The notes under the pieces: model-generated
Told to the model about the DNA's origin: nothing
Seen by the model: the letters and a program-made list of their open reading frames with translations, nothing else
Database searches by the model: none
In this document: positions 21,078 through 43,799 of the stretch, in pieces
Position numbering within the stretch: the first letter of the stretch is position 1
Layout: each line of letters opens with the position of its first letter
Source of the DNA: an uncultured Clostridia bacterium
GTDB lineage: Bacteria; Bacillota; Clostridia; TANB77; CAG-508
DNA length: 64,000 nucleotides
Reading direction: 5' to 3'
NCBI GenBank assembly: GCA_947628715.1
Contig: CANRAW010000001.1
Span: forward strand, 102,780-166,779
Position numbers and translations under genes: made by a program

Positions 21078-24000
21078 TTATTTTCTTAAAATTACAGAAC
21101 TACCAACAGGTTGAGATACTTTAACGATTTCCTATTTCATTCTTGCTATCATCTAATCTACACTATAGTCGTCAGAAATTTTATCAATATTTAAGTGAAT
21201 TTGTATATTAGTATCTCCAATGTTTGAAGATATTGAACTATTAGTATAACCTTGCGAATTGAAGATTGGTAATTGAGAAAGAATCTTTGCCGCCTCACCT
21301 ATTCGAGCTGTATCTTCGGGATTGAGGAATGCTTCGGGGCGATTAGGCTTACCATCTACCCACGCAGGACCAGTGTAATCTACAAGACCACCTTTTGCAT
21401 AAACCTAAACATCTTTTCTAACAGAAGCAGAAGCCGCAGTATTGTTCTTACTAAATAAGTCAGCTTGATATTGAGCTTCTTCTTCGCTATTGTAAACTCC
21501 CATAAGTTGAGAAGGTCCATGAGCAGGATTTATCCAAACTTGATAACGTTCTGCGGTTAAAGTACCACCACGTTCAAGTTCGTTTACACCAGAATATCCA
21601 ACTTCTTTTAGGCTATCATAAGCTCCTGCTACAATCTTACCATTCACGGTTAAATTGTTTTGTTCAGCCCACTCATAAATTTCATCAGCAGAAGAACTTT
21701 GGTCTAAATTAGACCAGTTAATTAAAGTGCTCGCTGCATATTTTGAAACATTTTCAAAGCCTGCACGAGTAGCGTCTACCATTGCATTGATTGCTGATTG
21801 ATGAAGAGCTACACTTTCGTCCTCTGCGTCGTCTAAAGCGTCTTTAGTTTCTTGAATTTTGGTCTTAGTATCTTCCATTTTAGTCTTAGCGTCTTCATAA
21901 GCTTGATTAGCAGTTTCAATAGCTTCATTAGCAGCGTCAAGAGCTTTATGTGCGGAATCAATAGCTTCATTAGCAGCATCAACAGCAGCCTATGCGGCGA
22001 CTTCAGCGGCTAATTGAGTTGTTGTTCCTACATTAGAAACATTCTCGCTTACATTATTATATAAGAAATCAGTTTCGTTAGCAACTTGTTCAGCATCAGA
22101 ACTCATATCATTTTTAAGCAAGCCGGCATATTTAGCATAAGCTTTATAGTCATCACCCAATTCATTCATATATTGTTCTGTTTTCTCAACAGACATATCC
22201 TAAACATCAGGATTATTCTATAAGAACCAATCTTGCATTATTTCTGTTGAAGTCCATGAAGCCATTATTGACCTTGCCCAATCATTAAAATATTGAGCAT
22301 TTTCAGTAACATCTTCCATGTACTCAATTTCAAGGTCTCTTGCTTCTTTTTGTTTTTCATAAAGTTCCTTTAAGTTATCTACTACATTATCAATTGATTC
22401 ATCTAATAATTTTTCTCTATCGTCTTGGACTTCTTGTTCTAATTGAGCAACTTCTTTAGCATTAGCACCAGAAGTATCTCTTTGGAGTAGCGATAATTTC
22501 TTTTCTTTAGTAGCTAATTCATTCCATTCATTTTCTTTATCTCTCAATTCTCTTTGTTTGTTGATAGCATCTTCTAAAGCGTCCAAATACTCACTATCAG
22601 CTTCACTCATAGCGTCATATTTGTCTTTAGTAATATCAACCTCTTCTTGTGCCTAATTCTTTAGTATATCAATTACTTTATCCTAAAGAGCTACATAATC
22701 ATCTAATGCTTGCTTACGATATTCTAAACGTTCTTTTTCTATTTGTTCAATTTGCTTATTATTCTCTGTTTGTTTGTCTCTATATTCCTCATACAAGTTA
22801 TATTCTTCTTCAAAAGCTTTCTTTAACTCATCATTAGCGTCCATATGGATATAACTAAAGTCAACCTGTGCCGCACCACTGGGGTCAAAAGAAATATAAT
22901 CTCCATAATTAGATTGCATTGTTGAACGTAAATTAGCTAAAGCGTCATCTATTACTCTATTTTGAGCCTATAAATTAGCAGTCTGTCTATCGTAATTATA
23001 ATCCAACGAACCATATAAACTTGCGGCTTCATCAATGTCGTTAGTATCTTCTAAAGAATTTTTAATATCCTCAATTGCATTATTAACATCTTTTAATTTT
23101 GTAGTATAATTTGTTAAGCCATCTAAGCTACTTGCAAAATCATCTGTACCATGAATTGCTTCATCAAGTTGTGCATTAGCTTCATCTAATTGTTTATTAG
23201 CTTCATCAAGCTATTCATTAGCATCATCAATCTAATCTAAAGCGTCTTGTACTCCTTCTTCATCGTCTTTAAGCTATTCCTCAAGTTCAGCTAACTCATC
23301 CTTTAAATCTTCAACTTTATCTTTACTTATTTCATATTGTTCGTTAATATCAATTAGTCCTTTTAACCAAACTTCCTAATCTTGCTCTTCCATTCCTTTC
23401 TTAATATTATTTAAGCCGCCCTCGTATTCTCGTAATGTTTCTGCACCATTGGCTAAAGCATCGCTTATAACATCTATTTGTTGAGGGTCTAAAATAGAAC
23501 TTTTTAGAAATTCTTCCCTACTCTCATCATTAAGATTTTTAACAATTGCATAAATTTCTTCAAGACTATAAGTTAAACGTTGAGGACCTTTATTACTTAA
23601 ATCAAATCTTTCTTTATTTATATCATTATAAACTAAAGTAGGTAGTTTATTATAATTGATATTTACTGACTCTTGTCTTATTTTATTTACTTTATCAATT
23701 TCTTGTTCTTGTAATTTAATTTGCTCTCTTAATTCATTTAACGGCTGTAGTGCTGAATCAACAATAAAATTCTCTGCTTTATCAGCTATTAACTCAATTC
23801 CTTTTGAAGTAGTTGTAGCAAAATCTTCAAAGCCTGCTTCAACTAATTTTAAATAGGTTGTAGATTCTATAACACCATTCTCATAAAACTCTTCTCTCGC
23901 CGCATTTAATTCTTCAATTTTTTCATTATAAGTTTTAAATTCTTCGTCCAAATTACTAAAGAATCCTTCTACTCCAACCTAATTTCTTATTACTAAATCT

Positions 24001-27000
24001 GCTATGCCTGCTTGACTTGCTAATTGATAATATTCTTTCCAAGTTTGTTCTGCTTCAGCACTTGTCATTGTTTCTTCTAATGTTTTTATAACAGAATCTT
24101 TGATTGTTGATAAATTAGATTGAGTAACATTAGACCAATCAATGCCTAATAAAGCACTCTATACTTCGGGGCTAAATTGGCTAAGAAATTCTTTCTGTTC
24201 AGTCATGAAAGTCTTAGTTGTTGTATCCCCTACTTGTTCTATCATTTTATCTACAGCTTGATTTAATTGTTCAAGTTGAGTTGCTGAATAATCAAAGTAA
24301 TTTCTCTTACTAAGTCCTGTTTTACCTGCTAAGTTTTCAATCTATACTTTCTGTTGATTTTTTAATTCTTGCAATAATTCTTCTGCTGCTTTATGTTCTT
24401 CTGAACCAACCTCAAAATTCGATAAAAACTGTGCTGCAACACCTGTATCTGTCGATATTAAATCTTTATAAGTATATTTACTTGTATCTTTAGTAAAATT
24501 GATAATTGATTGTCTTTGAACTTCACTTAATTTTTTATATTCATCATTTAAAACTAATTGTTCTTGGAAATAAGCAATTGCGGAAGCGTTATATCTCTGT
24601 TGAACAATATTAAATTGTGTTGCATCTTCTTTTATACTGTTCCAATCTAAAGCAGTTTTACCCATAGATTTAAGAATAGATTCAAGAATTGTTTGCTAAT
24701 CTATAGTTAAATCTTCCCAAGCAACTTTACTCAATTCTTGTACATAACCTGTTACATCTTTGTCTAAACCTATTCTTGCTAAGAAATCAGCTACAGATTG
24801 GTCTTCTCCAGTCTAAGATATAAGCTCCTAAGTTAAAGAAGAACGTTTTTGAGCTTCCATAACCTAATTATTAACTTTTTCTTGTGCAGTTAGATTCTTT
24901 TCTTCTTCTTCTTTCTTTTTATTATAATCTTCAAGTAATTCTGCTGTACCATCTATTGAACGCTGTAACTAATTAAATAAATAAGCTACTTCGTCCATAT
25001 TGCTTATATCAATATTAAGTTCTGTTCTTGCCCATTCATTAAAATCAAAATCGGAAGCGGAAACCTAACCGTTTTCATCATAAGTACGAAATTGAGCTTT
25101 TGATAGTGCTTTTAGAATTTCTTCTGTTGTCTCTCCCTCTGACATTCTGTCTGTCACAAACTGTGCAATATTAACGTCTCTGGTAATATCACCAAAACCC
25201 AGAAAACCGTTGCCAATTGTACTGCCCAAACGAACATCTGACATTGATTTTATTTGTGATTGAGTTTTTTCAGCTTTTAAATCTTCTAAAGTTCTATCTT
25301 GTTCAATTGTCGCCGCTTCAACTAAATATGCAGTCTAAGCATCTTGTTTAGCTACAGTCTCAGATTTTTTAATAATAGAATCCCACAAATCATTCTATAT
25401 TGTTAATTGTTTTGTAGTTTCATCGTAATATGTAACAATTTGAGGGAATTGTTCTCTTACCTAATCTACTAATTCATTATATCTTTCTTGTTCATCTGCT
25501 GTTTTTCCCTATTTAACATTTAATTCATTAAATTCTTTTTGTAAATCTTTGGCTGCCTTAACAGCTTCTTTGCTATCGTCTGCTGTAGATTGGAGTTTAG
25601 TCTAAGCTTCTTTAAGTTCGTCTAATTCCTGTTGAGCGTCTGCAATTCTTTCTTCGATAGGTCTAAGATTTTTCTAAGTTTCTTTATAGAACTCTATAAC
25701 CTTTTTAGCCACTTGTGTAACTAAAAAAGCTCCCACCATAAGGGCGATAGCAGGTAAAGATTTACCCAAACCAAGTTTTAAAGCTTCTCCAATTCCTGAA
25801 CCCGCAGATTTTGCTTGTGCAACAATTGAAGCAAATTCAGTTCCTATCTATACACTCTCGCCTGTAAGCATTGCATTAAAACTATCAAGTCCTGCTTCAA
25901 TATCTTTAGTTGCGAAAGCTGTTGAAAGACCTATAGAAGCTGAACGTCCTATTGCTTGGAAACCTTTAGAAAAAGACTCACTATAGTTTTTTACTTTTGC
26001 TTGTGTTTCCTATAGTCTTGCATTTTGTTCTGAAAATTGTTCATTAAGTTCTTTTGTTTTTTGTTTATATTCTTCTATTTCTTTTTCTGAATTTTCAATT
26101 GCTTGGGTATATTTATTAACCTCAGCAGTTGCTTGTTCTATTTCTTGCTATCCCTAAGTTTGTTGAGATAACAAATTATTCATTCTCTATTGATGTGTTG
26201 CTTGTTTCTTTTTAGATTTAGGATTCTTTCTCTATTCTGCTGCTAATTGTTCTTCTACATTTCTTTGATTTTCTTGTAATAGTAAAAGATTATCTTCTGC
26301 CGCCTATTTCTATGCTGTTGCCTAAGTTTTATTCTCCTCAGCTTTAGAAGTTTTCTAACTATATTTATCAATTTCTTTCTATGTCTTTTTTAAATCTTTT
26401 GCAGACGGAGCTATTTTACCAGTTAAATTAACAACTGCTTTATTAACAATATTTGCTAAACCATTGGTTAAACCTTGTCCTAAATTATCTGCTATTGATT
26501 TTCCTGCTGCGATAAAATTGTTTGAAGCACTTTTTAATGTTTTAAGAAAAGTGTTAATAAAATTATAAATAACTGGTGCAATTACTGATGCACTAAACAA
26601 TAATTTTACTGGACTTGTTTTTGAAATTTTTTCAAGTCCTGATGTAAAATTATCAATAAAATTTTTAAAGAAATCACTATTAAGGAAACTTGTTCTTATT
26701 TCTTCCCAAACAGTTTGTAATCGTTTTAATTTATACTCAACAGTATCTTGATATTTTGCAAATTGTTCACTTGATTTGCCAGCCGAGTCTTGTGCCGTCT
26801 CCACAAGTTCCATCGTTCTGTCATAATTTTCCATGAGTGACAGAAATCTCGACTATTGTCTCGAACCCAAGCAAGGATTGTAATCCTTACACAGACTATA
26901 TCTTTACCTAATTAAATTAAGTACCTTCCATTTCAAGGTTAATACCTCTACTCTACTTGTATTATAACTTTCGATAGTCGTTGAACTTAGTTAATTATAA

Positions 27001-30000
27001 AATTAACTTTAGCTGCGGATTATAATACTTAAAATCTTATTACTATACCTAAAGCATTACCTCTTGCCACGATTAGTTAATCGCTTAGTAATTTTAAGTT
27101 ATGTTACGTTCCCGCAATTAAAAAGGTTTTATTCGACCCGTTCAGGGAGAGCCGAAACTGTTGCAATATAACGTTGTGTATTACGGTCAAGTGTGTTCCA
27201 ACGCTTACTTAATTCCAAGAAAACGTCATCAAGGTCACGGAACTAACCAGAAGCGTCTTTTAATGAAATGCCAACTGATTTTAATGCTTTGTCAACATTA
27301 TTGTAATCCAAATCTTCAAATTCTGATTCGTCCGTTCCTGCAACGTTCTCTTTCAATTCCGTAAAGCGAGCAATGCGAACTCACACCGCCCCTTTCGGGG
27401 TATTTTAACACCAGCTTAGTGGTCGGATTAGACTATATCTTCATTATTAAATGTAATAATGTCTCCTGTTTCAAACTTATTGAAGTTTTACTTGGCTACA
27501 TTCATCGCCAATAGTCGTTGAACCTCCTGCTTAGAGATTTTCTTCCACTGAAAACCTTTTATATATTTAACTTTTCCTGATATTGCATTACCAATAGAAC
27601 CATTTACAACACCTACTGCTTTAGCAGCTTCTTCCTGTGACGAATAGTAATTAACAAAATTTCCATCTTTATCAAATTGAACAATATAAAAATCATATTC
27701 ATCTACGATTTTTTGAGAACGATATGTGCAATTATCTTTTGCAGAACAAAGTCTTAAATTTAAAAGATTATTGTTACTTTTGTTACCGTCTATATGGTCA
27801 ATTTGCTGTTCTGTAGTTAAAGAAATTTTATTAAAACTTTCGTATACTCCTCTATGCACAAGTATCTTTTTCGTTTTTCCATCTAATTTAGGTGAATAGT
27901 ATCCATATCCATTTTTATCAAAATGCAATACTAATAGTCTATTAGTTTGACTATTTCTAAGTCTACCTAAATTAGAAAAATAAAGATGAGTGTCGTGATA
28001 CTGTTCCCATTTTTCTCCGTCTATATAATTATCTGGTGTATAATATTTATATGACGATCATTTATTTTTTGTAGCAGAATGGTCAGCTTCTTTTGCATTT
28101 TCAGAGTATGTTACCCATTGTAAATTGGTTACATCATTATTTAATTTATCTCCGTCAATATGATGAACTACAGATAAATTATTAGGATTATCCAAGAACA
28201 TTAAAGCTACCAATCTGTGAGCTCCGACATTCTTTTCAATCTTTCCTTTTCTTAAATAATAATTTCTATATCCATTTATAATACTACCTTTTAAGAAATT
28301 ATTGGTAATTTTATTTTGACATCTTCCATCAGAATAAATATAATAATCAAATTCAATATCATTCAAAATTATTGTTTTTCTTTCAGTTTCCATTTTTAAT
28401 CCTCCTTAGCAGTTTGGCTGCTGATTGTCCAATTCTATAAATATTTTACCATAATTTTAAAATTATCAAAAACTTTCGTATTTGTTTAGGTTTAAATAGA
28501 TTCTAAGGATATTCCAGCAATTAAAGAGATTTTTAAACTACCATTGCTATTCTTACTTATTTAAATATTGTAAAAATTTCTTTTAATAGTTTTTAAACAT
28601 TTATATTAACTTTATATTTCTATAAAGATTAGACTATATCTTCATCTTATTATATAATAAGAGCCTCCCACTTCAAAATATTATTTCAATATTTTTACTG
28701 GCATTTCAGCCATAGTCGTTGAACCTTAATTGGAGAACAATTCTGGTTTAGTTTCTTTTAAAAATTCCACTTCTTTTTTATAATATACTCCAGAAAAAAT
28801 TCTACTAATGGTTTTTGGATGTTTATTATATATTTTTCCTATTTCTATATTTGTTTTCTTCTGTTCATATCTCATTTTTATGATATTTTCTATATCAAAT
28901 AGAGATAGTTTTATTTTATTATTTCCTACTCTTTCTTCGTGCCATTTCATAATTTCTGGAGTATTATATTCTTTTAATATATCAGGCCAAGTTAAATATT
29001 TACAAATATAAGCAAAATTAGACCAAGTAATTTTATCTTTATAATCTTGATAAATAGTATTTCTATCTTCAATCATTTTACTTTGACGTAATCTTATATC
29101 TTCAATTTCTTTCTCAGTCATTTTAGCATTACAATTGTTTTCTCCATCTAAGAAATTTTGAGAATTGCCATTGTTATATCCATTTTTCCATGAATCAAAT
29201 AGGGTTATATAAAATTGTTCACGTTCATTTAATTTATCTACTGAACATTCTTCAAGAACTTCTATATAAAAATTTTCTATTCCTAATTCTCTCATGGCAA
29301 TATGGATTTTACTTTCTTCTCCAACTCTTGCATCTCTTAAATGAGAAAGCCAACGTCTATGAATATTTGTTGACCTTCCAATATAAACTTTATCATTGAT
29401 TATATTTTTTATTATATAGATTCCAACCATAAACTGTTCCTCCTCTTCTTGGCTGCTGATTGCCTATTTTATTATAAGAATATAACAAATTTTACTATTT
29501 GTCAAAATCTTAAGTTAAATAGTAAACTTTAAGGTTTCCCAGCAATTAAAGAGGTTTCAAATATACTTCACAGTATATTAGGGTTTTTAAAAAGCCGTTC
29601 CGCATTGATTTTAAAAATTATAAATTTTTCTCAATGGCTATCTTAAATAACTCATATTTCCTATCCAAATAAATTGTTGCATCATCATAGAGTAAATGTA
29701 AAATTTTATTTACCTCTCTTTTTCCTGCGACTACAAACTTAGGTACACTCCTATTTCTATCTAATTTCTTGTTAATCTGCCACAAATTCATTACAAAATT
29801 CAATATATCTTCTGTTCCTATTAAGTTAATTCTGTACCTAATTGAATTAGCCCCATTTTTTTGAGGATAGATACTTCCATCACCATCAAATAATCCTCTA
29901 CTCCAATGAATCAACAATTCATTTGGCATTATCATTTTTGGCTGTAAAGTCAAAGATTTTTTTCTATATAATCCTTGCTTTTCAAGGTCTGAACATATTT

Positions 30001-33000
30001 GTCTATCATAAATTCTGAAATATCTGTATGGTTTACCTTGATTGTTAATTTTATCTTTATAAGGAACATTTGTCTCTAAGAAATTTTGAAATTTTATTAT
30101 ATGTTCTTTATCTTGTTCAGCCAATCCTAAAGTTATCTCTCCACGCTCAGGGTCTACATAGCCGTCTGCGTAAAGGAATCCAAGCCAGTAAGCCTTTTCT
30201 TCTGAATCGATTTTCTCGAAAACCTTCGAATTACGTTCATAAATCATACTTTAAATTCTCCTTTTTAAAATATTTTAGCTTAAAATTTATAATTTCCGCA
30301 CAATAATTGTGCCTTTGGCTTCTTTTGTTATACCAAAGATAAGACTATCGCATACTCATAATTCAATGAGTCTCTTTCGTTTAGTCGTTCACAGTGCTTA
30401 GCCGAGTAATCTCGTTGAGCTTCTGCCCTATAATCCACTTCTGGACTTCTAAGTCAATTAGAAAGAGTTTCGCTATATAGGTTATATATTTATCCTATAA
30501 AGAACACAGGTACGTTTATGTTCTCCTTTTGTATTAGAAAAGAGTTGTTAATTCCTTTCCTACATATTGAAATGTAGCTATAAGTTTCCCTATAGAATAG
30601 ACTATATCTTCTTCTTATTAAAAATAAGAAGGGCATCGCTTCAATATCACTTGATATTTATTGGTGCTAATCTCCAATAGTCGTTGAACTTTTCTCTTTT
30701 AGTAAAGAGACTTAGCTGCGGATTACCCAATCTTTTACTCTTTTACTACACCACAATCAATTACGATGTGCCACCCCACTATTGCTAATGGGGCTTAGTG
30801 TTAAAAGCTCTAAGGGTTTACCCGTCAATTCAATGCCTTTCATTATAATAATCACTTATTATACGCCCAGTATTTTCAAATTGTATTTTCTATTCATAAC
30901 AGTTTTCTGTTTCCTATTTATTGCTTGTCTCAAAAGTCTTGGGTTAATATCTGGATAAAGTTTAGTTAAATTGTTAATCTCGTCATAGTTAAAATAAAGA
31001 GTTATATCAGAATTATAAAGCATATATTCAGTATCTCTTTTCTGCTCAAATTTATCATCTTTTGTTGTATTAACTTTATAATCTTCTATTCCTTTAGATT
31101 CAATAGGCTTTGCTCCTTCTCTTTCGGTCAACAATGAAAAAGATGATTTAATCAAATCCCATTCAACCTCTACTTCTTTATTATCTTCAATAAAATAACC
31201 ATTAAATTTAAACTCTCTATTTTTATTAGTGGCTCTTTTGTAACAATCATTCAATTCATTTTTAACTTCATCAATTTTTATATATTTTGTTTTATAAGAA
31301 GTTTTATTTTTATAATTCAAAATCCAATTTATAGCGTCATTTGAAATAGGAAAATCTTCATACCAAAATATATAATCTTTATGAGTTAGTCTCTGTCCTG
31401 ATATTACATTAAACATACAACCTCTTGACACCCCTCTTTCATTACAAAACTGAGTTATATTATTGAATACTGTTTGTTCAAAGGTTTTGTAATTAAAACA
31501 AATAATATTTTTCAAATTAACTCCTCTTATGTTGTTTTTATTATAATAATCTGACTGCTCACTATCAGAAGTTGCCAAGTTCATATTGTAAAATTTTTCG
31601 TTTGGTATCTTATAATATTGCAAATAGTATTTCTCCAACCAAGACAATTCTTCTCCATCTTGTGCCGCCGCAATATAATGAACTTCAAAATTTTTCTGAA
31701 CCATATTCTTTGAGAGCTTTCATTAAATCTGTTCCACTACCTTTATAAGAGGGCTTATGGAACAACTGACGAGATGTCACTTTTCCAATATACAATTTTC
31801 CATTGACCTTATTTTTTGAATAGTAAATATAACCGTAATTCATTACGCATTCCTCCTTTTTGTTTTTACTATACTTATAGTATAATAAAAATAAAGCGGA
31901 AAGTCAATTTTGTAATTACTTTTTACTATTTGTATATTCAACAAGCTATCTTGCTGTTATATGAATACCTGACACAAGCCATGTACCGTGGAGCTTCTTG
32001 TGTCGTCTCTATCATTTGCGTGATGAATGCCGAGGTGGTCTCGAACTCCATACCGGCACTCGATGCAATTGTTTACTTCATTCAACAAGGTTCGTTACTT
32101 CCTTATTCGCCCTTTCGGGCGGCTTTATATTTCTATAAAGAATAGACTATATTTTTTTCAATATTACTTCGATTTACTTAAATCTACTCTCACACGAGAT
32201 AGTCTTTGAGCTTTAATTCGAGGAAAGATTTTATTACCTTTTAATTTTTAATATAAAATTTCTATTAAAAAATATTGTGGACTAAACAATATTTTTATTT
32301 TTGTTTCTTTTTGTTCTTTCTATAGCATTTAGGACAGCCTTTTGTTTTTTCAAAGTCAGTTAAACGAGTTGAATAACAAAAACCACATTTGTTATGTTTA
32401 ATAAGACTTTTATCATTATCACCTTTATATTGCAATAAAGTATATTCTCCATTAGTCTTTTCTTCTAACCATTGATTTGCTTCATCAAAAGAGAACTTAT
32501 TATAAACTTTAAAACAATTGGGGCAAATTTTCCCTGAGAAACTGCTACTTACTTTCTTATCAAAAATACAACCACATCTATTACATTGGAATTTAGATTT
32601 ATTATTAACACCATTCCATTCAATTAGTTTAACAAAACCTTTATCAAGTTCTTCTAACATATGATTGTAAATTTTATCAGATTCTTTTTCACAGTTATTA
32701 CAAAAATAGTCTTTTCTTCCATTAAACAAAGATTCTAAGTTTTTAATCTCTTCTATTTCCCCACACTTGTTACATTTTATTGTTGTGCCAGCACAAATAC
32801 CTTTATAAGAAATAATAGTTATATCAGAATTAGGATAAAGTCTTTTAAACTTATACTCCATTAGTCTATCAACATTCCAACGACTAAAAGGATTATAACA
32901 TTGTTTACATAATGTAATTTTTGAGAATAAATTTCTTGCACAACTACTCTCATAAATTTTTCCACAATTTAAACACTTATAAACAATTTTTTCTTTTTCT

Positions 33001-34968
33001 CCATTAAATTCTATAACTTCAATATTATTTTCCTTAAATACCTTTTTTAATTTTTCTATAAAATTCATTTGCTCTTTCCTCCAATTCTTAGTTGCTGATT
33101 ATCCATTATAAAACACTTAGGTTAGTCAGACCATATGTCATATTATTGTTTTTTTTCTGCTTTCGCCGCATTGAATATTTGAGCAATATTCTTTAGCACA
33201 ATAATCTTTAGGAAGTTTCAGCAATTTTAATATTTTAAGCACCAATTGATGCCGTCTTGCTCATCGCATAGGCAATTCCCTCAACTTCTGCCGCAGCTTT
33301 TGCAGCGAGTTCGGAGTAAACATCAGTTACTCTCTCACCTTCATCCATCTCCATATGGAAGCCACGCAAGGCTGCTGTCATCTTCTGCGTAGCGTCCTCA
33401 AAGTCTAACCCGGCAAGTGTTGCAAGTTTCATGGTAGACTCGGTAAGTTCCAAAGATTCTGTCGTGTCTAAGCCCTACTGGTAGTAGAGTCCCGAAGCTT
33501 CTATTACGCCTTGGGTAGTCTAACCTAATCTCGCCGCCATTTCTGCATAGCTATCGTAACTTTCCCACATATCTTGTACAGAGAAGTCAGTTACCATAGC
33601 AATATTTGCGAACGCTTTATCTAAGTTCTATATATCAGTAAATGTTTGAGTTATTACTTGTCTAACTTTAGCAACTATATTATATAGTGAGAAAAAACTT
33701 TTTAAAGTGTCTTCTAATACGCTAAAAGTCTTATCAACTTCCGAAGCGGCAACTGATTCTTCATACAACTTGCCAATACTTTCGTCCGTAGTTTGTCTAA
33801 CTTTATCCTATGCTTTGGCACTATCATTAAGCATTTGGTTGACAGCGTTTCTATTATTCTAATTTGCTTCTGTTGTTTCTAAAATTTTGTTAGTTAATTC
33901 TGTTTGAGTTTGAACTATTTGAGCTAATAAACCTAAATAATTTTGAAGATCTACGTTGTTTACCAATTGTTGAGCTTCTGCATTGAGGTTATAATTACCC
34001 ATTTCATCAGGTTCAACTAATACTTGTGCTTTATTTTTTGCTTTAGTAATATTACCTTTATCTACACGACTTGCGTCCTCATAAATTAAATCATTAACTT
34101 TCTTTAAATCAGAAGCAAAGGTTTGTTGTACCTAAGCTGTATTTTTTAATTCTATTCCATAGTTTTTTAAGACTTCAGTTAATCTTTCAATACCTGCTTT
34201 AGCAGATTCACCATTTTTTACAATAGTTAATAAAGTAGCAGAATACTGTTCGTTAATTTTCTTTATATTTACTTCCATATCTTTGTTTAAAAAAGATTTG
34301 GCTAATTTTTCATCGGTAATATTAAAATCAGATTGTTTTAAATTTGAAACGTTTGCTGTATTGATATAATTCTACGCTTTGCCAGTGGTTTGAAATTTTT
34401 GTCCTAAAAATCGTCTATAGTTATTTTCTCTTGTCTCTCCTAATTTTTTTAAAGTCTTTTCAAGTTCTCCGTTTAATTTAATTTCTTTCTCAATTGTATT
34501 TAATTCTTTATCGTCTAATCCATACTTAGTTCCTGTTGCAACATTTGTTACATACAATCCCTCTGCTTGGGCTTTTACACTTGCCTTTGCTTTTTTCTAA
34601 AATTCTTCTTGTTGAATTGATAATTTTTCTAACGCATCGCTTAATGCCTGAATTTCTTTTTGTCCCTAATCAAAATTTTTTGATATATTGAGCTTTTGTA
34701 AATTTTCTCTTATTGAAGCAATTTGAGTATCTAAGATTTCAAAACCTTTTGCAAAATATTCAACTTCTTTTGGATTAGAAAAACCTTTTTGAATTAAGAA
34801 TAGCATTTTTTCCAATTGTTTATCTGCTTTCTAAATTTGTTTATCAACCTAAGTAAAAAGAGTTTCTCTTAATCCAGATTTCTCTAAAGTTTCTCTTATT
34901 TGTTTTAAAGAGTTTAATATTTGAGAAGCGTCAAACTCTCCAATATACTAAAATTTTTCTATTGCCAA
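21078..34968 (-). CDS. Tape measure protein, seven exons separated by six group I introns
   Basis: Exons are 33243-34968, 31992-32065, 30518-30525, 29594-29602, 28586-28597, 27150-27375 and 21078-26867. They total 7,845 nt (2,614 residues) with dozens of TAG=Gln codons. A TTG start follows AGAGGTGAAATAAAAA. Landmarks, once spliced, are AYAMSKTASI-ASSAGMEFETTSAF, ETTQEA-ENI-GTA-LKT-IIARFTELKE, ASGQFRDLDDVFLELS, NTQRYIATVSA-GSRQQSRFLSLMEN, hydrophobic segments, long coiled coils and a C-terminal YAKGGLVDYTGPAWVDG. It sets tail length and guides DNA or effectors through the membrane. By usual scaling, this size predicts a very long tail. The exon 1/2 boundary is uncertain by about 6 nt. Confidence 0.9.
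26868..27149 (-). ncRNA. Group I intron 6 of the tape-measure gene (no ORF)
   Basis: A 282-nt intron between TVSA and GSRQQSRF. Core elements on the minus strand are AATTGCGGGAACG (P), AATCCGCAGC (Q), GTTCAACGACTATCG (R) and AAAGATATAGTCTG (S). The upstream exon ends in T and the intron ends in G (CTTGCTTG). Splicing recreates ATVSAGSRQQSRF, in which the second Q is a TAG codon. Confidence 0.9.
27488..28057 (-). pseudogene. Downstream HNH/NUMOD part, separated from upstream HNH by an in-frame TGA
   Basis: This continues the frame of the HNH gene at 28058-28393 directly after its TGA: SSYKYYTPDNYIDGEKWEQYHD (NUMOD4-like), then a second HNH unit HRGVYESFN...IDHIDGNKSNNNLLNLRL and a C-terminal NUMOD/HTH-like tail. 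No ATG or GTG start lies between the TGA and the HNH motif; the first TTG is at 27928. Either a nonsense mutation split a two-domain endonuclease, or this part is translated by readthrough or from a weak start. Confidence 0.6.
28058..28393 (-). CDS. Intron-encoded HNH homing endonuclease (N-terminal part)
   Basis: A 111-residue HNH protein: MGAHRLVALMF-type motif GAHRLVALMFLDNP, then VVHHIDGDKLNNDVTNLQWVTYSENAK, which contains the metal-binding His and Asn residues. AAGGAGGATTAAAA precedes the ATG. It ends in TGA, but the same frame continues with a second HNH unit. It lies between the Q and R elements of intron 5. Confidence 0.75.
   Translation of the reverse strand: METERKTIILNDIEFDYYIYSDGRCQNKITNNFLKGSIINGYRNYYLRKGKIEKNVGAHRLVALMFLDNPNNLSVVHHIDGDKLNNDVTNLQWVTYSENAKEADHSATKNK
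28598..29593 (-). mobile_element. Group I intron 4 of the tape-measure gene, with GIY-YIG gene
   Basis: A 996-nt intron. Minus-strand elements are P AATTGCTGGGAAACC (about 29530), Q CAATCAGCAGCC (about 29450), R GTTCAACGACTATGG (about 28710), S AGATATAGTC (about 28630) and a P9 hairpin CTTTATAGAAATATAAAG. It ends at G28598. The 5' splice site is ambiguous because both ends border T runs; cutting after GGC gives the canonical GTA-LKT frame. Confidence 0.82.
28726..29430 (-). CDS. Intron-encoded GIY-YIG homing endonuclease
   Basis: A 234-residue protein. The N-terminal GIY-YIG module reads GIYIIKNIINDKVYIGRST, then RRWLSHLRDA and ENFYIEVLEE, which contain the catalytic Tyr, Arg and Glu. The C-terminal DNA-binding part includes an HTH-like NIEIGKIYNKHPKTISRIFSG. 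AGGAGGAACAGTTT precedes the ATG. A possible intron-internal promoter (TTGACA, plus positions 29500-29505; TATATT, 29479-29484; 15-bp spacer) lies upstream. The gene is intact. Confidence 0.9.
   Translation of the reverse strand: MVGIYIIKNIINDKVYIGRSTNIHRRWLSHLRDARVGEESKIHIAMRELGIENFYIEVLEECSVDKLNEREQFYITLFDSWKNGYNNGNSQNFLDGENNCNAKMTEKEIEDIRLRQSKMIEDRNTIYQDYKDKITWSNFAYICKYLTWPDILKEYNTPEIMKWHEERVGNNKIKLSLFDIENIIKMRYEQKKTNIEIGKIYNKHPKTISRIFSGVYYKKEVEFLKETKPELFSN
29603..30517 (-). mobile_element. Group I intron 3 of the tape-measure gene, with LAGLIDADG gene
   Basis: A 915-nt intron. P1 is very clear: exon GGAGAACAT pairs over 9 bp with GTGTTCTTT, with U.G at the splice site. R is GTGAACGACTAAA (about 30385) and S is GCGATAGTCTTA (about 30340). 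Here the endonuclease gene lies 3' of the S strand (P9 side), unlike the neighbouring introns. The intron ends at G29603 directly before exon CGGAACGGC. Confidence 0.88.
29618..30247 (-). CDS. Intron-encoded LAGLIDADG endonuclease
   Basis: A 209-residue protein with two motifs, AYWLGFLYADGYV (about residue 19) and HWSRGLFDGDGSI (about 115). Unlike the dnaE-intron enzyme, it lacks N-terminal HTH units. AAGGAG precedes the ATG. Its TAA stop lies 12 nt from the intron 3' end. Confidence 0.88.
   Translation of the reverse strand: MIYERNSKVFEKIDSEEKAYWLGFLYADGYVDPERGEITLGLAEQDKEHIIKFQNFLETNVPYKDKINNQGKPYRYFRIYDRQICSDLEKQGLYRKKSLTLQPKMIMPNELLIHWSRGLFDGDGSIYPQKNGANSIRYRINLIGTEDILNFVMNLWQINKKLDRNRSVPKFVVAGKREVNKILHLLYDDATIYLDRKYELFKIAIEKNL
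30859..31843 (-). pseudogene. GIY-YIG homing endonuclease interrupted by a +1 frameshift
   Basis: The ATG at 31843 (AAAAAGGAGGAATGCGTA upstream) starts MNYGYIYYSKNKVNGKLYIGK, the GIY-YIG core. The frame hits TGA at ...YGSEKF (GAA AAA TTT TGA). The +1 frame then continues as FEVHYIAAAQDGEELSWLEKYY, exactly as expected for GIY-YIG proteins (xENFEV). Removing one A restores a protein of about 330 residues. The rest resembles an HTH-containing DNA-binding region. It is either a simple indel or a TTT-TGA +1 slip; an indel is more likely. Confidence 0.75.
31879..31907 (-). promoter_or_regulatory. Promoter inside an intron driving the GIY-YIG gene
   Basis: On the minus strand, TTGACT (31902-31907) and TATACT (31879-31884) are separated by 17 bp, 36 bp upstream of the GIY-YIG ATG. 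The layout matches the phage's own early promoters and would allow expression before late transcription. Confidence 0.72.
32066..33242 (-). mobile_element. Group I intron 1 of the tape-measure gene, with zinc-finger protein gene
   Basis: An intron of about 1,177 nt after ...SKTASI. Minus-strand elements are P AATTGCTGAAACTTCC (about 33215), Q AATCAGCAACTAAG (about 33090), R GCTCAAAGACTATC (about 32195) and S AAATATAGTCTATTC (about 32145). It ends AATTG before CATCGAGTGCC. The 5' boundary is uncertain (33243 or 33249). Confidence 0.78.
32295..33068 (-). CDS. Intron-encoded multi-zinc-finger protein, no recognised nuclease motif
   Basis: A 257-residue protein built from four repeated modules, each with CxxC...CxxC (KCLNCGK...CKQCY; KCNKCGE...CNNCE; QCNRCGC...CPNCF; HNKCGF...CPKCY). 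Modules are separated by Lys/Tyr-rich linkers with an I-x-Y/W-x-G signature (IEFNGE, ISYKGI, IEWNGV, LQYKGD). No HNH, GIY-YIG, LAGLIDADG or PD-(D/E)XK motif is evident. A similar single module opens the RuvC-like protein at 8237. It could be a homing-associated DNA-binding protein or a divergent nuclease. GGAGGAAAGAGCAA precedes the ATG. Confidence 0.75.
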   Translation of the reverse strand: MNFIEKLKKVFKENNIEVIEFNGEKEKIVYKCLNCGKIYESSCARNLFSKITLCKQCYNPFSRWNVDRLMEYKFKRLYPNSDITIISYKGICAGTTIKCNKCGEIEEIKNLESLFNGRKDYFCNNCEKESDKIYNHMLEELDKGFVKLIEWNGVNNKSKFQCNRCGCIFDKKVSSSFSGKICPNCFKVYNKFSFDEANQWLEEKTNGEYTLLQYKGDNDKSLIKHNKCGFCYSTRLTDFEKTKGCPKCYRKNKKKQK

Positions 34969-37042: not shown

Positions 37043-37939
37043 TCAAATATAATCTTCACTCAACTCACTATTTAAAAAACTTATATTCATAATCTCCCTT
37101 TCTTCTCTATCTTTTTCCTCATTAGGATAAGCAATAAAATAAAAATCACTAACTGTTGAATTATCATAACTTTTTCCTAAATTCATTGATAAACTTGAAC
37201 TTATTTTAACCTTAGGAAAATCGACAATAGCAGTAGTAATTTCTCCTGTTATCTAATTTTTAACACTCATTTTTCCGTCTAATCTCATATAACCATTAAA
37301 TAATCTATTACCCACTTCAATTACCTTTATTCTATCCTAATAATAAAAAGTATAGTCAACAATTACATTACGGTATCGTTCTTTAAAGAAAATTCTATTA
37401 TTAAAAATTCCAAAGTCTTTAATCTTCTATCCCGTCTCTTTATCATAAATAAAAATCCATTTGGTTTTTGATGGCGGCAGAGGTTTTAATAATAACTCTG
37501 GTCGTCTACCCATTGGAAGAGGTTCGTTATAAGGATTAGGCTATGCTCCTATTTTACACTAACAACTGTTAGGACAATATTTTAAATCAACGTAACAATA
37601 AGCATTATCTTCAATAGTATGTAACTCTTCATAATATGAAATTGATTTAAATTTTGGCTCTTTCATTATCGAATTACTTAGTAAACTATAGCTTAAAGGT
37701 GATAAAACCCCATGAGTAATTGCAAAACTAACCTAATGGTCTACTTCCCAATCAACTAAAGGGTTGTTATGATAACCTCCTCTTGCACTTACAATATCCT
37801 TATGTTCGTTAATCTAAGCAATTTCAATTGTAGAAAACGACAATACACTCTCATTAACATCATATTTCTTACTACCAATTTCCAAAGGCTTATTCAATCT
37901 CAAATTAACATCAAACATTTCTTTAATTCCAGAATCCAC
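37043..37939 (-). CDS. Hypothetical tail-region protein, TAG-containing
   Basis: A 298-residue protein. A GTG start at 37939 follows GGAGGTGAGATA. The N-terminus, MDSGIKEMFDVNLRLNKPLEI, is followed by a beta-rich body with a Cys-rich segment (YCYVDLKYCPNSCQCKIG). It ends TGA 14 nt before the next start. Function unknown; it is probably structural by location, between the tail-tube paralogues and the tape measure. Confidence 0.68.
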
Positions 37940-38000
37940 TATCTCACCTCCTATCAATTATCTTATATAATATAAGTAAAATCTTTAGTTTTATAAACTT

Positions 38001-38030
38001 AAAAAAAGAGATAGGATTGTTCCTATCTCT
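38001..38030 (-). terminator. Terminator after the tail-tube paralogue cluster
   Basis: A 10-bp perfect stem (AGAGATAGGA / TCCTATCTCT) with a 4-nt loop is followed on the minus strand by a run of T. It lies 14 bp after the stop of the 38044 gene. Confidence 0.9.
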
Positions 38031-38043
38031 TGTTGTCAAACTA

Positions 38044-39459
38044 TTAGTATATTTCAGGATTCTCAAATCCAACATCAGGCTTGTTCTCAATTGTAGTAGG
38101 TGTATAAGTATACCTTGCTTTCTGAGGAACAATCCTTGTGCCGCCATGAAGCTTGTCTTCTTCAACATCAAATTGTTTAAGTTCCATCATAATGTCGTTG
38201 GGCGGCGTAAGTACGTCAATGCTCATACTAAATGTTGTTGGGTCTCCTTCCGCTTCAAGTGTAATACTTGTATCTGCGGAAACTGTAGCTCTATGGATAA
38301 CGAACTGATAACGTTGGTCTTTTCCTGTTTTCTGTTCCCTAATGTAAGTTTCTCCTACGATTTTGTAAGCATCAGGGAATGTATCAGCGTCTATAACGAA
38401 CGTTTTTCCTATTGTTCCGTCTGATTGTCCTGTTTTAAATTTTACAGTACGAGTAAATTTATAGTATACTGTACCCATTTTTATAGTAAATTCGTCTGTA
38501 TCACGAACACCGTCAAAATCTCTATCATAAGGTTCAGCACCTTTCTCGGCAGCGTCCCAACCTTTTATAAAACCGTCATCAGACAGGCTAAGTAATGGGA
38601 GCATTGTTTTTGCATCGTAGTAGATAGTAAAGGAAGAAGTTGTATCTCCTTTATAATAACGAAGAATATTCTTCTTTTGTTCAGCGGTGCTAATTGTCAA
38701 TCCGTCACGCTGTGTTACGATACATTTCTCCCATCTATCTATTGATTCTGTTTCGTAGATTTGAGTTTCTATTGTACCTATTTTTTTAAGCTCATCGATA
38801 TAAGTTATTATCTTCTCTACTACCTTATCATCAATTGCCCTACCTAAAGTATCTTTTCCATTAACTTTAGTCTCTCTTAATCTAAAGAAATATTGTTTCA
38901 TTAGATTTTCTCTATTCTCAGCAATCTTAGGGTCGTCAGACCTTTGCCTATAGGTAGAAGTCCAATAAACATCATTACCTGTCTCTTCTTGTGCGGCGAC
39001 AGCAACAACTTTAGTTGCTTTCTCGTCCTTAGCAACATCTGTCGCAGCCCTAAAAACAATCTCCCACTCATCATCAGTAAGTGCAGGAGAGGGATAAGCT
39101 TTAGTAGAATAATGCAATTCACCATACTTATTAGCCATATTCAATTTAACAATAGCAGAAGTATAAGGAGATAACTTAGATTCCAATTCGCCGCCCCAAA
39201 TCAAACTCATTGAAGCAGGAGTAAATAAAGCGTCCTCTAAGTTAAGAGTAATCTCTTTACCAAAATTCCATGTGATAAGCTTTTTATTACCTTTACCACC
39301 TTCAGCGGCTACCTTTTCTGCTGACTTCTCTATTGTTGAAACTTTTAAAGTATCGAGGAAAAGCACTGGAGTATAGACCTCTTCGTCTCCAATTGTATTT
39401 ATACTATAGAATACAACATCAGCAACTTCCTTAATACCATATTTCTAAAAAAGATTCAT
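38044..39459 (-). CDS. Tail-tube-type structural protein, paralogue 1
   Basis: A 471-residue protein starting MNLF-Q-KYGIKEVADVVFYSI (one TAG, aligned with E/D in paralogues). It carries the cluster's shared motifs: PVLFLDTLKVSTIEKSAEKV, then GGKGN...NFGKEITLNLEDALFTPASM, then a C-terminal GETYIREQKTGKDQRYQFVIH and ITLEAEGDPTTFSM. It is the last of four tandem paralogues and is followed by a strong terminator, so it is the most likely major tube subunit. The ATG overlaps the stop of the extension of paralogue 2. Confidence 0.82.
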
Positions 39460-39776
39460 TTTTTCACCTCACTCTCTGTTATCGAAATAACATATTCATT
39501 AGGTTTAAGAGCTATAACTTGGTTTCTATTATAATACGGTGTGCCGGCATAGGTTTCTGTTTGAACGCCATTTACTATATTAGTATAGTATGGTGTTATT
39601 TTTTCGTCATAGTGAAGTTCAGCGGTGATTATTGTATCGTCACCACCTGTTCTTGTTTCCTCTTTATGTAAAGTAACTGAATTATTCTCTGAACTTACTT
39701 CGTACTAACCTAAAACCGGACTTATCAACTTAATTTCCGCATTAGTAATTTCTTTTTGTTCCTTAGTTACAACTCG
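39456..39776 (-). CDS. 106-codon in-frame extension of paralogue 2 after TGA (candidate readthrough domain)
   Basis: It continues the frame of the 39777-41792 gene directly after TGA-C: RVVTKEQKEITNAEIKLISPV, then a TAG at VLG-Q-YEVSS, beta-strand-like repeats (NNSVTLHKEETRTGG, TPYYTNIVNGV) and ALKPNEYVISITESEVKK. Its TGA overlaps the ATG of paralogue 1. No ATG or GTG start with a ribosome site lies inside it. It resembles an Ig-like decoration domain in length and strand pattern (inference). Confidence 0.6.
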
Positions 39777-41792
39777 TCAGCGAACCTCATCTTGGTAGAT
39801 GGGGTCGTCAGGCATCACCCAATCACTGGGAACAACATTTGTGCTTCCACTATCATATCCATCGTAGGTAGCTTTATCGACATTATACTGAGTAATCTTC
39901 ATCATTACTCCATCTTCTCTACGAAGTACCTACAGGTTCATGGTGAATGTAGTAGGGTCGCCAGCCGCCTCCAGTGTCAGGCTTGTGTCGCTGCTCATCT
40001 TGCACAATGGAATTTCAAATTGATAACGTTGGTCCTTTCCGTCCTTTCTTGTTCTTGCATAAGTCTCTCCTACTAAACGATATGTTCCGGGATAATGGGT
40101 AGCGTCTACTATTATCCTGCTACCTAAAGTCGTATACTTAGGAGCTTTAGTCCTTGTCCATTTATAATAAACTTCATATTGTTTTATTACTCTTAAATTA
40201 CCATTTACTACTGAACCATTTTTACGTTGGAATATACCAGTGTTTGGTTCATAAGGTTTCATTGTTTTAGGGTCTATATAAACAACAAGTTCCGCTTGAT
40301 CGTATTCGTGCATATAACGATAATTTCCCATTCGAGTATTTCTATCTGTATTGATTGCAAAAGTTTGAGTAGCCTTGCATTTCTCCATTCTTTCAAGGAG
40401 AGGAACTTCCTCTAAGCCACTATTGATTGGGTATATCCAATCTTGAGGAGCAGTTATACCAGTATTCCAATCGTCAATTATATAGAAGATTCCAACAGGA
40501 GCTGTAGCTATACAGGTAACGAGTTTACCGTCTGCGGAGGGAATTTGGTAGTAGACATGAATGTAGAATACAATACGTTTATCTCCACTCTGTCCATCTC
40601 CACTTATACTATAACGTATTCCGTCTATTCTTTCGTATTGCTAATCTCTGTCCGTATCTTTACTATATACCATTTTCATATCATCAGTACTAAAATGAGT
40701 TACTAAATCACTAATTCTATCTACTTTATAATCTGTATAAATATCGTCATTTGACTGTCCGTCTTTCATAAGTTTTTCACGTCTATAATAATGTAAATCA
40801 CTTGTACCAATTTGTATATCTGATTCAGTACCTTCAACTTCTGTTCTATAGAATAAAGAAGCGTGTTCTGCACAATATATATCCATAGTACCCTCAAGAG
40901 AGGACATTTTTATATCAGTATCTTCCCATTTATATTCATATACATTAGCACTTAAATCACACCAAGCGGGTTGTGAATCGCCGCCTACAGCGTGCCAGTT
41001 TTCAACTTCTTCACTATTACTTAAATTAGTATCATATGTTGAAAAAGCAGTAAAATCAAATTTACCAAAATTATCTATTGAAATTTCAGCTCTTTCTAAT
41101 GCGTTTTCTCCCCAACAACCTTTGGTAGTATTTAAAGTGTAACTTTTATATTTTTTCTTGTGAAATTCTTTTTCATGATAAGCTACTTGACCTTGATTAA
41201 CACCATCACTTATTGCTCCATTTTTTTCAAATATTCTTGGTCTACCCCCAGTATTAGGAACAAATCTTATTAACTTTTCTCTATCATCACAAGGGCAAAT
41301 TATACGAACACATTCTCTAATATCCCCATCTTTTAACTCTTTATTTTCCCCTTCACTATCCAATTTTCCATTTTTAACCCAATACCATTTCCCATCACTA
41401 TTACTGGGTTTCTACATCGCAACTTCTTTTGTAAAATAAATATTCCTACCAAGTCTATCTTTAGGATAAATATACGGATTCCAACCACCGTAAATCTTAG
41501 TATGCTTAGTACCAAACTTACCTCCCCACATCATACTCTGACTTGCGGGCGAATACAAAGCATCTTCGAGCGTAACCGTAATCTCCTTACCATAATCCCA
41601 CATAATAAGACGAGGATTTCCTAAACCTCCTCGTGCAGAAGTCTGTTCTGCTGTCTGTTCAACAGTCGAAACTTTTAATGTATCAAGGTACAGAACAGGC
41701 ACATAAACCTCATCATCATATTTATCAAGTTCAATGGCATAAAGAGTTACATCAGCAACTTCCTTAATACCATATTGCTCAAATATATTCAA
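39777..41792 (-). CDS. Tail-tube-type structural protein, paralogue 2
   Basis: A 671-residue protein with several TAG codons and a TTG start after GGAGGGAGAATGA. The N-terminus MNIFEQYGIKEVADVTLYAIE and VLYLDTLKVSTVEQTAEQTS, GGLGNPRLIMWDYGKEITVTLEDAL are shared with the other paralogues. The middle (about 150-450) is an unrelated insertion with Trp/Asp-rich beta segments. The C-terminal core has GETYARTRKDGKDQRYQFEIP and LTLEAAGDPTTFTMNL-Q-VLRREDG. The frame stays open beyond the TGA. Confidence 0.78.
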
Positions 41793-41805
41793 TCATTCTC
41801 CCTCC

Positions 41806-43731
41806 TTATTCACATAAAACTTCTGTTGAACCGTCTACCATTACAAAACAGCCTTTCTTATCCTAAACCATCTTTGGTGCTGTCTCGTAAGAAGTCAATT
41901 CCATCATCACACCACTTTCTGGTCTTGCTACTTCTAAGTCTAAATTAAAAGTAGTAGGTTCACCATCTGATTCTAATGTAAACGACTAATTTGATAGTAC
42001 CTTGCAGAAAGGGAACTTCAACTATAGTCGTTCATCTATACCAGTATCTCTATTTTTAATATAGGTTTCCCCAACAAGCATATACATACCCGGGAATTTG
42101 CCTGCTTCTACAATAATTTTTTTAGTTTTAAGATTCTTACCTTTTGGAGACAAGGTTAGTGATTTGATGTAGTAAACTTCCCCTTGATGAAACCAATAAT
42201 CGTCATCATAAGGTGTCATTGTATCGGGATTTATATAGCAATGGAGTTTACCATCTAACTTTTTATCTTCCAAATGGTCTGATTCTAATTGAGCGTAGTC
42301 TGCTTCAAAATTATTAGGTTCATCAGCAATATTAGTAACTGGCTTTATTGATAGTATATCGTTTTCGTATTTTGTTATTAAAAAACAGATTAAAGCATTT
42401 ATACTATCAAACCTTTGCCACATTTCAATACCTTTAAACTAAGTTACATCAATATAGGGAGCTAATTCCCAATAAACTGTGCGATGTGATATTGCTTTAT
42501 TGAAATCGGTAGTAACTTTAGTTCCTTTTTCTATTTCTTGATTTGACGAAATGTCAATGCCAAGAGAAGCATAGTAGTCGTTATTGTTGTCAATCGTTAT
42601 TTTGAGATAATCTGCCTAAGCAGGATTTTCAAAGTAGAAAAATTTTAAATTATCGGTTATTGTTAAATAGCCACCGTCATCAAGAGGGATTTTATTTTTT
42701 ACTAAAGTACCTTGTGCCGCCTTACTATAAAGTAATTCAGGATATTCACCTAAAGTATTATTTTTACTGACTAATACTTCTTTACTATCATTAGTGTTAA
42801 TTGTAAAAGTCCTGCCACAAGGTCTAATTACCTAACCTTTATAAGCATGGTCAAAATTATTGCCTGTAATACTATCAATTTCTTCAAGATAGGCAACAAA
42901 ATTGTGTTTATCAGAAACAATACTATCTTTGGTATAGTAACCTGTAAACGTAATCTTAATTTTATGGTTTAAATTCTCCTTAGTCTCGTCAATTACAATA
43001 ACTGATGGCGGCCGCATATCATTTATATTAGGTTTACCAACATGATAAATAACACTAAAATACGGATTATCATAAGTAGGTGTTGTAATTGAAATAGGCT
43101 TCTTATAGTTAATAGGAAAATGTCTCCCCTTAATATCAAAAAACCTATCTGGAATAATAGCAAAAGACCTTACAGAAGATTCTATCGCCGCTCTCCAATT
43201 GTAAATATGTCCTTTACAATTCCCCATTCCTCTTATATCAACCCCATCAACAACAGACGATTTCATCAAAACCTTATCATCATCTCTATATTCACAATCT
43301 CTATGGGGTAAATACTTACTTATTGTATGTTTCCTTGAAGTGTTAATAGGAAACACAACCTTTTCCATTCTACTTAATCTCTCAGTCTAACAATTAACAT
43401 TTATTCCACTTTTAATCTTAACTTCACTATTTTTCCAATCTGCACTTAATACGCCGCCCCAACATAAACCAAGCGAAGCGGGGGTACAAAGTGCATCTTG
43501 TAATGTAACGTCAATTGTCTCGTTATAATCCCAACAAATTAACCTTGAATTACCTAATCCTCCCTCTGCCCAAACGTTGTCTGCGTTCTTCTCAACAGAG
43601 CTTATTTTAAGAGTATCAAAGTAAAGTGCCGGCACATAGTAAACTTCTCCACTATTATCTTGTTTCTTATGAATACTATAAAGAGTTGCGTCCGCAACCT
43701 CTTTAATACCATATTGCTCAAAAATATTCAT
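41806..43731 (-). CDS. Tail-tube-type structural protein, paralogue 3
   Basis: A 641-residue protein with several TAG codons, starting MNIFEQYGIKEVADATLYSIH. The shared core LYFDTLKISSVEKNA and GGLGNSRLICWDYNETIDVTLQDAL is followed by a long insertion, then GETYIKNRDTGIDERL-Q-LKFPFCKVLSN-Q-SFTLESDGEPTTFNL. The first TAG here aligns with an invariant Q (DQRYQF, DERFQF) in the other copies, an internal proof of TAG=Gln. Confidence 0.78.
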
Positions 43732-43756
43732 TTAACTCACTTCGCTTTATCTTATT

Positions 43757-43799
43757 CTAAAAAAATTGGGTATTGAATATTTGCTTCAATACCCAATTT
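43757..43799 (-). terminator. Terminator after tail-tube paralogue 4
   Basis: A 15-bp stem (AAATTGGGTATTGAA / TTCAATACCCAATTT) around a 7-nt loop, with a T run on the minus strand. It separates paralogue 4 from paralogue 3. Confidence 0.85.

Follow-up and report, generated by a model that had tools for sequence, protein, structure and literature searches.

Six predicted group I introns and three micro-exons in the tape-measure gene of an uncultured phage with recoded TAG

The tape-measure gene described here lies on the minus strand of a 64,000-nt stretch of DNA (the window) and is interrupted six times. The window falls within a metagenome bin, at positions 102780-166779 of a contig of 166,779 bases, and its identified genes are those of a phage: portal, virion structural proteins, a sigma factor, the tape measure, and the large terminase. 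The open reading frame (ORF) of the first tape-measure exon matches PF10145 (PhageMin_Tail) over residues 477-576 (1.2e-12, over the cut-off). The core of the gene is matched by 118 phage records, all at <60% identity. Among the 40 of these that were listed, many are annotated as tape measure, and each holds the core in a single piece.

The tape-measure frame is open only if TAG is a sense codon. In-frame TAG is common throughout the late genes, where ORFs of 1,909, 836, and 1,930 aa disappear unless TAG is taken as sense. A tRNA with a CUA anticodon (program label tRNA-Pyl) is located 32 bases from a tRNA-Gln (contig positions 41065-41248) and is likely the suppressor for the recoded TAG. Because TAG stands at positions where relatives have Gln, e.g., SG-Q-FRDLDD, it is likely decoded as Gln.

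Seven exons of 1720, 83, 8, 9, 12, 226, and 5790 nt make up a predicted spliced frame of 7,848 nt. Exon 1 (33249..34968, minus strand, as are all features of this gene; 1720 nt) has a putative TTG start at 34968 and contains the beginning of the PF10145 match. Intron A (32072..33248; 1177 nt) and exon 2 (31989..32071; 83 nt) follow, both bounded by profile alignment. Intron B (30526..31988; 1463 nt) has its 5' site placed by protein conservation. It is followed by micro-exon 3 (30518..30525; 8 nt), intron C (29603..30517; 915 nt), micro-exon 4 (29594..29602; 9 nt, with a 9-nt exon at the same position in the related phage L009), intron D (28598..29593; 996 nt), micro-exon 5 (28586..28597; 12 nt), and intron E (27376..28585; 1210 nt). 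Exon 6 (27150..27375; 226 nt) is again bounded by profile alignment. Intron F (26868..27149; 282 nt) contains no gene, and exon 7 (21078..26867; 5790 nt) ends in TAA. The inner junctions of the spliced gene, with the three micro-exons set off in order, are predicted to read CCA/GAGAACAT/CGGAACGGC/TTTAAAAACTAT/CATTGC, and the predicted junction peptide is TTQEAPENIGTALK.

All six insertions named in a preliminary description of this DNA are present. They had been placed within about 330 coding bases and, after correction, lie inside 338 coding nt, with four of them (B, C, D, and E) inside 29 coding nt. The spliced gene has 2,616 codons, with TAA and TGA absent except as the last codon. Its core is 67-78% identical to those of intronless relatives at seven loci (L001-L006 and L008; the L002 core is the same as that of L001).

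Boundaries were obtained with a splice-aware alignment against a profile built from 29 distinct intronless relatives, the window being left out. Introns A, B, C, and F are recovered in this way, as are the 3' end of E and, to within 2 nt, the 5' end of D. The earlier boundaries of C, D, E, and F and the 3' end of B stand, and those of A and the 5' end of B are revised. Intron A moves by 6 nt to 33248-32072 with no change in the product. The 5' end of intron B moves by 3 nt to 31988, which restores one codon. The restored residue (P of EAPEN) is present in all seven aligned intronless loci, as Pro in six and as Ala in L004. The frame of 7,845 nt that had been described as an exact rebuild, with 53 TAG codons and a terminal TAA, is indeed open and was one residue short.

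The automatic alignment was rejected as sole evidence. It misplaced the 12-nt exon inside the GIY-YIG gene, it merges B with C at an intron cost of 14 and B to D at a cost of 20, and it invents some introns. It calls no introns in seven of seven intronless loci, all of them members of its own profile. On 12 further loci, it calls none in five, credible introns in two (L099 and L105), and false introns in five. The false introns amount to three distinct results among distant sequences and are confined to columns 284-305, a weak part of the profile; calls at column 301 of L037 and column 296 of L042 fall inside these columns and were dropped. Because of these faults, the tiny exons are made to rest on ribozyme cores, guide pairing, and relatives, and not on automatic alignment alone. 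The position of the 12-nt exon (28597-28586) is set by the ends of the D and E ribozymes together with the guide of E.

Ordered P, Q, R, and S strands are found in five of the six introns, with 7 mismatches in A, 1 in B, 0 in D, 1 in E, and 2 in F. None of 20 dinucleotide shuffles per intron reaches these chains, the best shuffles having 10-14 mismatches. The five cores resemble what we take to be group I subgroup IA. An IA-like P/Q/R/S chain was not found in intron C, where the best candidate has 13 mismatches and is reached by 4 of 20 shuffles. The claim that all six introns carry R/S-like core strands is borne out for the other five and fails for C, which nevertheless has a covarying group I fold.

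Intron C was aligned with the C introns of L013, L009, and L099 and folded from P2 to P9; its R and S strands pair across P3 and P8, the arrangement of the group I pseudoknot. In the four phages, 55 pairs are formed and 99.5% of cells are paired, a figure favoured by the structure having been drawn partly from the consensus of the same four sequences. Twelve of the 55 pairs, including pairs in P3, P7, and P8, have changed on both sides. The pair count is matched by 0 of 500 shuffles, and slid versions of the structure contain 0-1 such double-changed pairs. Intron C is a second group I subtype with a covarying P3/P7 pseudoknot. Its core occupies 30517-30290, and its gene lies 3' of the core. 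Pair counting applies to intron C alone; in the other five introns, the R and S strands were read.

The Rfam model RF00028 matches two of the six introns at its gathering score, B (82.3 bits at 30578-30888) and F (60.8 bits at 26872-27229). Below this score, it matches part of D (35.1 bits), C (28.9 bits), and E (25.8 bits). A match to intron A was not found even in the below-threshold scan, and intron A of L011 reaches 20.4 bits over the intron end only. No match was found in the ORF-less intron C of L013. At E 0.001, the model has ten matches across the assembly, all within the window. A covariance-model search had been proposed as a check on the group I assignment and, read strictly, most of the introns fail it. 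The low pass rate is likely due to the long internal genes and to the different subtype of C. Since Rfam alone misses introns, it was rejected as the only judge, and shuffled core motifs, guide pairing, and the pair count were used.

Guide pairing was assessed in a P1 test, in which the exon tail is paired with the intron segment before the core and a G is required opposite the last exon base. The test took 33 of 36 introns from the window and relatives; B of L009, L011, and L041 was omitted, as the start of the core was not set, and nine introns of L099 and L105 lay outside it. The mean P1 run is 5.27 nt in the 33 introns versus 2.65 in 982 cross-site controls, and runs of at least 5 occur in 23 of the 33 versus 6.2% of the controls. 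Within the window, the P1 pairs number 5 for A, 0 for B, 9 for C, 2 for D, 7 for E, and 7 for F. The splice sites of A, C, E, and F are well supported by P1; those of B and D are not. The P1 of intron C takes in the entire 8-nt exon, and that of intron E uses 7 nt of the 12-nt exon. The exon and guide of intron E have changed in concert in three phages (AAACUAU/GUAGUUU, AGACUAU/GUAGUCU, and AGACCAU/GUGGUCU), with the compensatory changes in L013 and L011.

The bases at the intron ends follow a pattern. Of 45 mapped introns, 37 are preceded by U and 42 end in G. The window has U before A, C, E, and F, and G at the end of B, C, D, E, and F. Introns B and D have neither the usual U before the 5' site nor a clear P1, and B is placed by protein conservation and its terminal G. 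Intron A ends in A rather than G in the window, L013, and L041. The start of intron A is complementary to the start of the next exon, CAATTG with CAATTG in the window and CAATCG with CGATTG in L011, where both sides have changed. Intron D has complementarity of the same type, UUUUUAAA/UUUAAAAA in the window and UCAUU/AAUGA in L009. These end complementarities look like P10, the letters being read by eye and without a control.

Five of the introns contain genes, all on the minus strand. Intron A contains a zinc-ribbon ORF (32295..33068; 257 aa) that matches PF05265 (1.7e-4) and phrog_559 (4.7e-20). The gene is longest in L009 (L009:6010-7092), where a protein of 360 aa (phrog_559, 1.2e-44) has zinc ribbons and a C-terminal homing-endonuclease-type part (phrog_9084, 5.9e-22). 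The ORFs in the window, L011, L013, and L041 keep the zinc ribbons and have no C-terminal nuclease-like part. A match to the L009 protein was not found among solved structures. The homing endonuclease gene of intron B (30859..31843) is divided between two frames (31843-31685 and 31704-30859) and is one intact ORF of 326-339 aa in L009, L011, L013, and L041.

Intron C contains a LAGLIDADG gene (29618..30247; 209 aa; PF14528, 3.1e-8; phrog_4645, 1.8e-45) with no break seen. The C intron of L013 is 255 nt long and is without this gene. Intron D contains a GIY-YIG gene (28726..29430; 234 aa; PF01541, 2.7e-11; phrog_5123, 6.2e-17), also with no break seen; this gene has relatives at six loci with 31-41% identity. 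No ORF of >80 aa was found in the 382-nt intron D of L009. The HNH gene of intron E (27488..28393; PF13392) consists of two HNH stretches in one frame with a TGA between them (ORFs 28393-28058 and 27928-27488), and this frame is open in L013.

Endonuclease genes are recognised by Pfam in C, D, and E (broken) and by PHROGs in A (shortened) and B (broken), and F has none. Genes of four kinds in five introns, as first described, are present, with the qualification that the A ORF is shortened and the B and E ORFs are broken. Two of the genes had been called GIY-YIG. For D, the label is confirmed by PF01541. For B, it comes from a motif read by eye and from homing-endonuclease PHROGs common to the L011 B gene and the D gene; significant Pfam support was not found. 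Only two of the five intron genes (C and D) look intact in the window, and the elements of the cluster seem to represent several stages of the homing life cycle.

The broken genes are also what a degenerating locus would leave, one in which some ribozymes are dead and the phage has no full tape measure or belongs to a dying lineage. Three of the five intron genes (A, B, and E) are broken or shortened, and intron A, with its 7 mismatches and final A, has the weakest IA-like core. We regard degeneration as highly improbable, as the 2,616 spliced codons contain no TAA or TGA but the last and five relatives spliced likewise have no stops in frame. The core of intron A differs from those of its kin but keeps all strands, and the same final A is shared with L013 and L041.

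The intron genes also differ from the tape measure in their codons. TAG is used at 0 of 39 Gln codons in the window's intron genes (27488-33068, minus strand) versus 53 of 199 in the tape measure (Fisher 3e-5). Because TAG does occur in the homologous intron genes of L041 and L013, the TAG-free genes may mark arrival from a standard-code phage. Alternatively, these genes may need to be decodable before the suppressor tRNA takes effect.

Relatives were retrieved with tape-measure queries against viral contigs and genome contigs. Seven related phages have 2-9 introns each in the tape-measure gene. L007 has two (K and I), L041 has three (A, B, and H), and L099 has three (51, 145, and C; site 145 is weak, with 11 mismatches, and is counted). 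L105 has six (A, B, D, H, I, and J), L013 has eight (51, 85, A, B, C, E, F, and J'), L009 with L010 has eight (85, A, B, C, D, H, I, and J), and L011 has nine (85, A, B, C', E, H, F, I, and J). We infer from their identical B, C, and D calls that L009 and L010 are one phage, and they are treated as such. L037 and L042 carry introns too and are excluded from the intron counts and the tree. Of their remaining eight calls, site 51 of L042 seems false (14 mismatches), and the other seven have 0-5 mismatches. L011 also has a 12-nt exon (L011:13430-13441) and a 9-nt exon (L011:15801-15809) at other sites.

Together, the window and its relatives use 14 codon positions within the same 310 codons. Sites are defined as codon positions; for two of the 14, namely 241 and 248, the intron of one phage is offset by 1-2 nt. 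Intron sites fall at conserved columns (3.44 versus 3.04 bits, p 0.0014; circular shifts 2.6%), and six of them lie within 13 codons (p 0.001).

Occupancy of the dense block varies between phages. The window has B, C, D, and E; L013 has B, C, and E; L009 has B, C, and D; L011 has B, C', and E; L105 has B and D; L041 has B; and L099 has C. Within the block, L011 is unoccupied at C and D, L013 at D, L009 at E, L105 at both C and E, and L041 at C, D, and E. All six window sites are empty in the seven loci L001-L006 and L008. Introns at the same site are 61-77% identical to those of the window, and the window's introns at different sites are 46-56% identical to one another, a comparison that leaves out L099 and L105 and has no unrelated-sequence baseline. 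By this measure, same-site introns appear to be orthologous. Since they are more alike than the window's different-site introns, the introns most likely arrived site by site, without local duplication.

The varied occupancy of B, C, D, and E argues strongly against two further explanations. The first is a twintron, in which all or part of the B-E stretch would be excised together and the pieces of 8, 9, and 12 nt would be pseudo-exons inside it. Fungal mitochondria are described as having tandem group I modules, separated by short pseudo-exons, that apparently splice as a single unit (PMC12308204), and the mergers of B with C and of B to D in the automatic alignment point the same way. Such a unit would have no coding sequence between its parts, but the 29 nt here encode residues conserved in intronless relatives, and their loss shifts the frame. 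C, D, and E are each missing from some relative that keeps the neighbours, so that B to E appear independent, and micro-exon bases take part in the guide pairing of C and E. A twintron is very unlikely on this evidence. The second is an assembly chimaera, in which separate intron-bearing pieces were joined in error. The window does come from a metagenome bin, but stacks of this kind, at the same sites, occur on contigs from several other metagenomes, and the order of exons and the frame are perfect. The chance of a chimaera is close to negligible.

Some of the relatives are not independent of one another: introns A, B, and 85 of L009 are 97-99% identical to those of L011, and these near-copies are counted more than once. 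In a tree of 35 rows, built without L099, L105, L037, and L042, the intron-bearing phages are scattered, with 5 changes, and 147 of 500 shuffles are as low. All intron-bearing rows fall inside one 17-row clade with a support of 100/100. Little can be concluded from the lack of introns in the remaining 18 rows, because retrieval by conserved peptides favours near relatives.

The best explanation, with a probability of about 0.9, is that the gene holds six group I insertions, separate mobile elements predicted to splice singly, which came by repeated homing. The ribozyme nature of the insertions and the exon structure are well supported by sequence comparison. Group I introns in the tape-measure core, as first proposed, agree with protein continuity, core motifs, guide pairing, the covarying P3/P7 pseudoknot of C, and independent site occupancy in relatives. 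The cores, the restored frame, same-site similarity, and independent occupancy are seen in the sequences themselves; splicing, homing, the order of arrival, and the decoding of TAG as Gln are predictions.

The introns would leave one by one to give the 7,848-nt frame with its three exons of 8, 9, and 12 nt. Each site is held by its own orthologous intron lineage across related phages, the lineages not being copies of one another. Homing-endonuclease-type genes are predicted at five of the six sites: zinc-ribbon/nuclease in A, GIY-YIG in B and D, LAGLIDADG in C, and HNH in E. Repeated homing would have been directed into one highly conserved stretch, where protein-level selection keeps the target constant. 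New introns would have settled beside old ones, and their genes would have decayed at unequal rates, leaving only C and D intact-looking here.

A bolder and rather doubtful extension is that the conserved stretch acts as a landing strip on which enzymes of at least three kinds (GIY-YIG, LAGLIDADG, and HNH) contest the same 13 codons. If so, each settled intron would destroy the recognition site of its rivals, and the stack with its 8-12-nt exons would record this contest and shield the phage from rival endonucleases. Because one micro-exon would then serve two neighbouring introns, the upstream one on one side and, through guide pairing, the downstream one on the other, a fixed order of removal would follow, and this order could time the tail ruler. 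Relatives with mixed occupied and empty sites provide a natural experiment on the competition of mobile introns for one target. The same experiment bears on the minimum exon length between ribozymes and on the order in which neighbours splice.

Comparable systems were sought in a literature made up mostly of abstracts, with subscription journals mostly outside it, and in this literature a described phage gene with more introns was not found. The initial impression that no known phage gene has such a cluster agrees with this search, in which published genes reach three introns or four interruptions; uncultured kin reach 8-9. The six introns are double the three spliced introns per phage gene in the literature searched and exceed the four interruptions of a crAss-like capsid gene.

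The tape-measure gene of ICP1 has three introns and four exons, with HNH genes and a content that varies between isolates; its terminase is also spliced, and splicing was established by RNA-seq and RT-PCR (PMC10448857). The present gene is similar in having HNH genes in tape-measure introns and a terminase that is also intron-split, here by prediction. Unlike ICP1, it has six introns rather than three, kin with up to nine, intron genes of four kinds, 8-12-nt exons, and a TAG-recoded frame. Orf142 of Twort likewise has several group I introns in one phage tail gene, three in number, and shows exon skipping (cited in PMC11878797). Polymerase and terminase genes of the Bastillevirinae have up to three group I introns per gene, and most tested genes are spliced (PMC11878797). 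As far as the text of that source available here goes, Bastillevirinae introns occur only in nucleotide/DNA metabolism genes and terminases, and tape measures, unlike the one in the window, are without them (PMC11878797).

Zeta-group crAss-like phages have a capsid gene broken into five fragments; of the four gaps between these, three contain intron-type domains (PMC7886860). They too are large phages with recoded stops and many introns; the gene differs, and the portion of the report available here does not mention micro-exons (PMC7886860). In placozoan cox1, from an animal mitochondrion, a 1-nt exon is flanked by group I introns (PMC5436844). The likeness lies in a tiny exon between group I introns; the present case has three such exons in succession and is from a phage. 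Other reports include a terminase and a polymerase with two introns each (PMC4299906), single introns in capsid and tail genes (PMC3706429), and 18.5 introns per genome in Jug phage (PMC12363816). The arrangement is of a known kind; what is new is its extreme crowding, with exons of 8-12 nt inside a core structural gene. Organelles already provide examples of micro-exons lying between ribozymes, and phages would now join them.

The terminase gene of the same phage (58676-55262, minus strand) is interrupted by six introns of 248-319 nt, each after T and ending in G. These introns (58537-58255, 58047-57800, 57695-57448, 57369-57087, 57065-56766, and 56316-55998) were mapped by alignment to nine uninterrupted homologues and are without large ORFs. 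Two of them are 21 nt apart. The gene is labelled a terminase on the PHROGs matches of two intronless homologues, for which a Pfam label was not obtained. Four of the six introns overlap RF00028 matches over the gathering score, one overlaps a 44.1-bit match, and 57369-57087 overlaps none. A seventh intron at 58,968-58,679 is doubtful because it is called at the lowest intron cost only. A tape measure and a terminase split by twelve introns, together with a recoded stop, may explain why such genes go unnoticed.

A further RF00028 match (44,303-44,037, minus strand; 75.8 bits) lies at the 3' end of the structural ORF 46914-44230. With the six tape-measure and six terminase introns, it brings the number to 13 in 64 kb. 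Five adjoining ORFs in this part of the window (37043-46914, minus strand) match the structural family phrog_2729.
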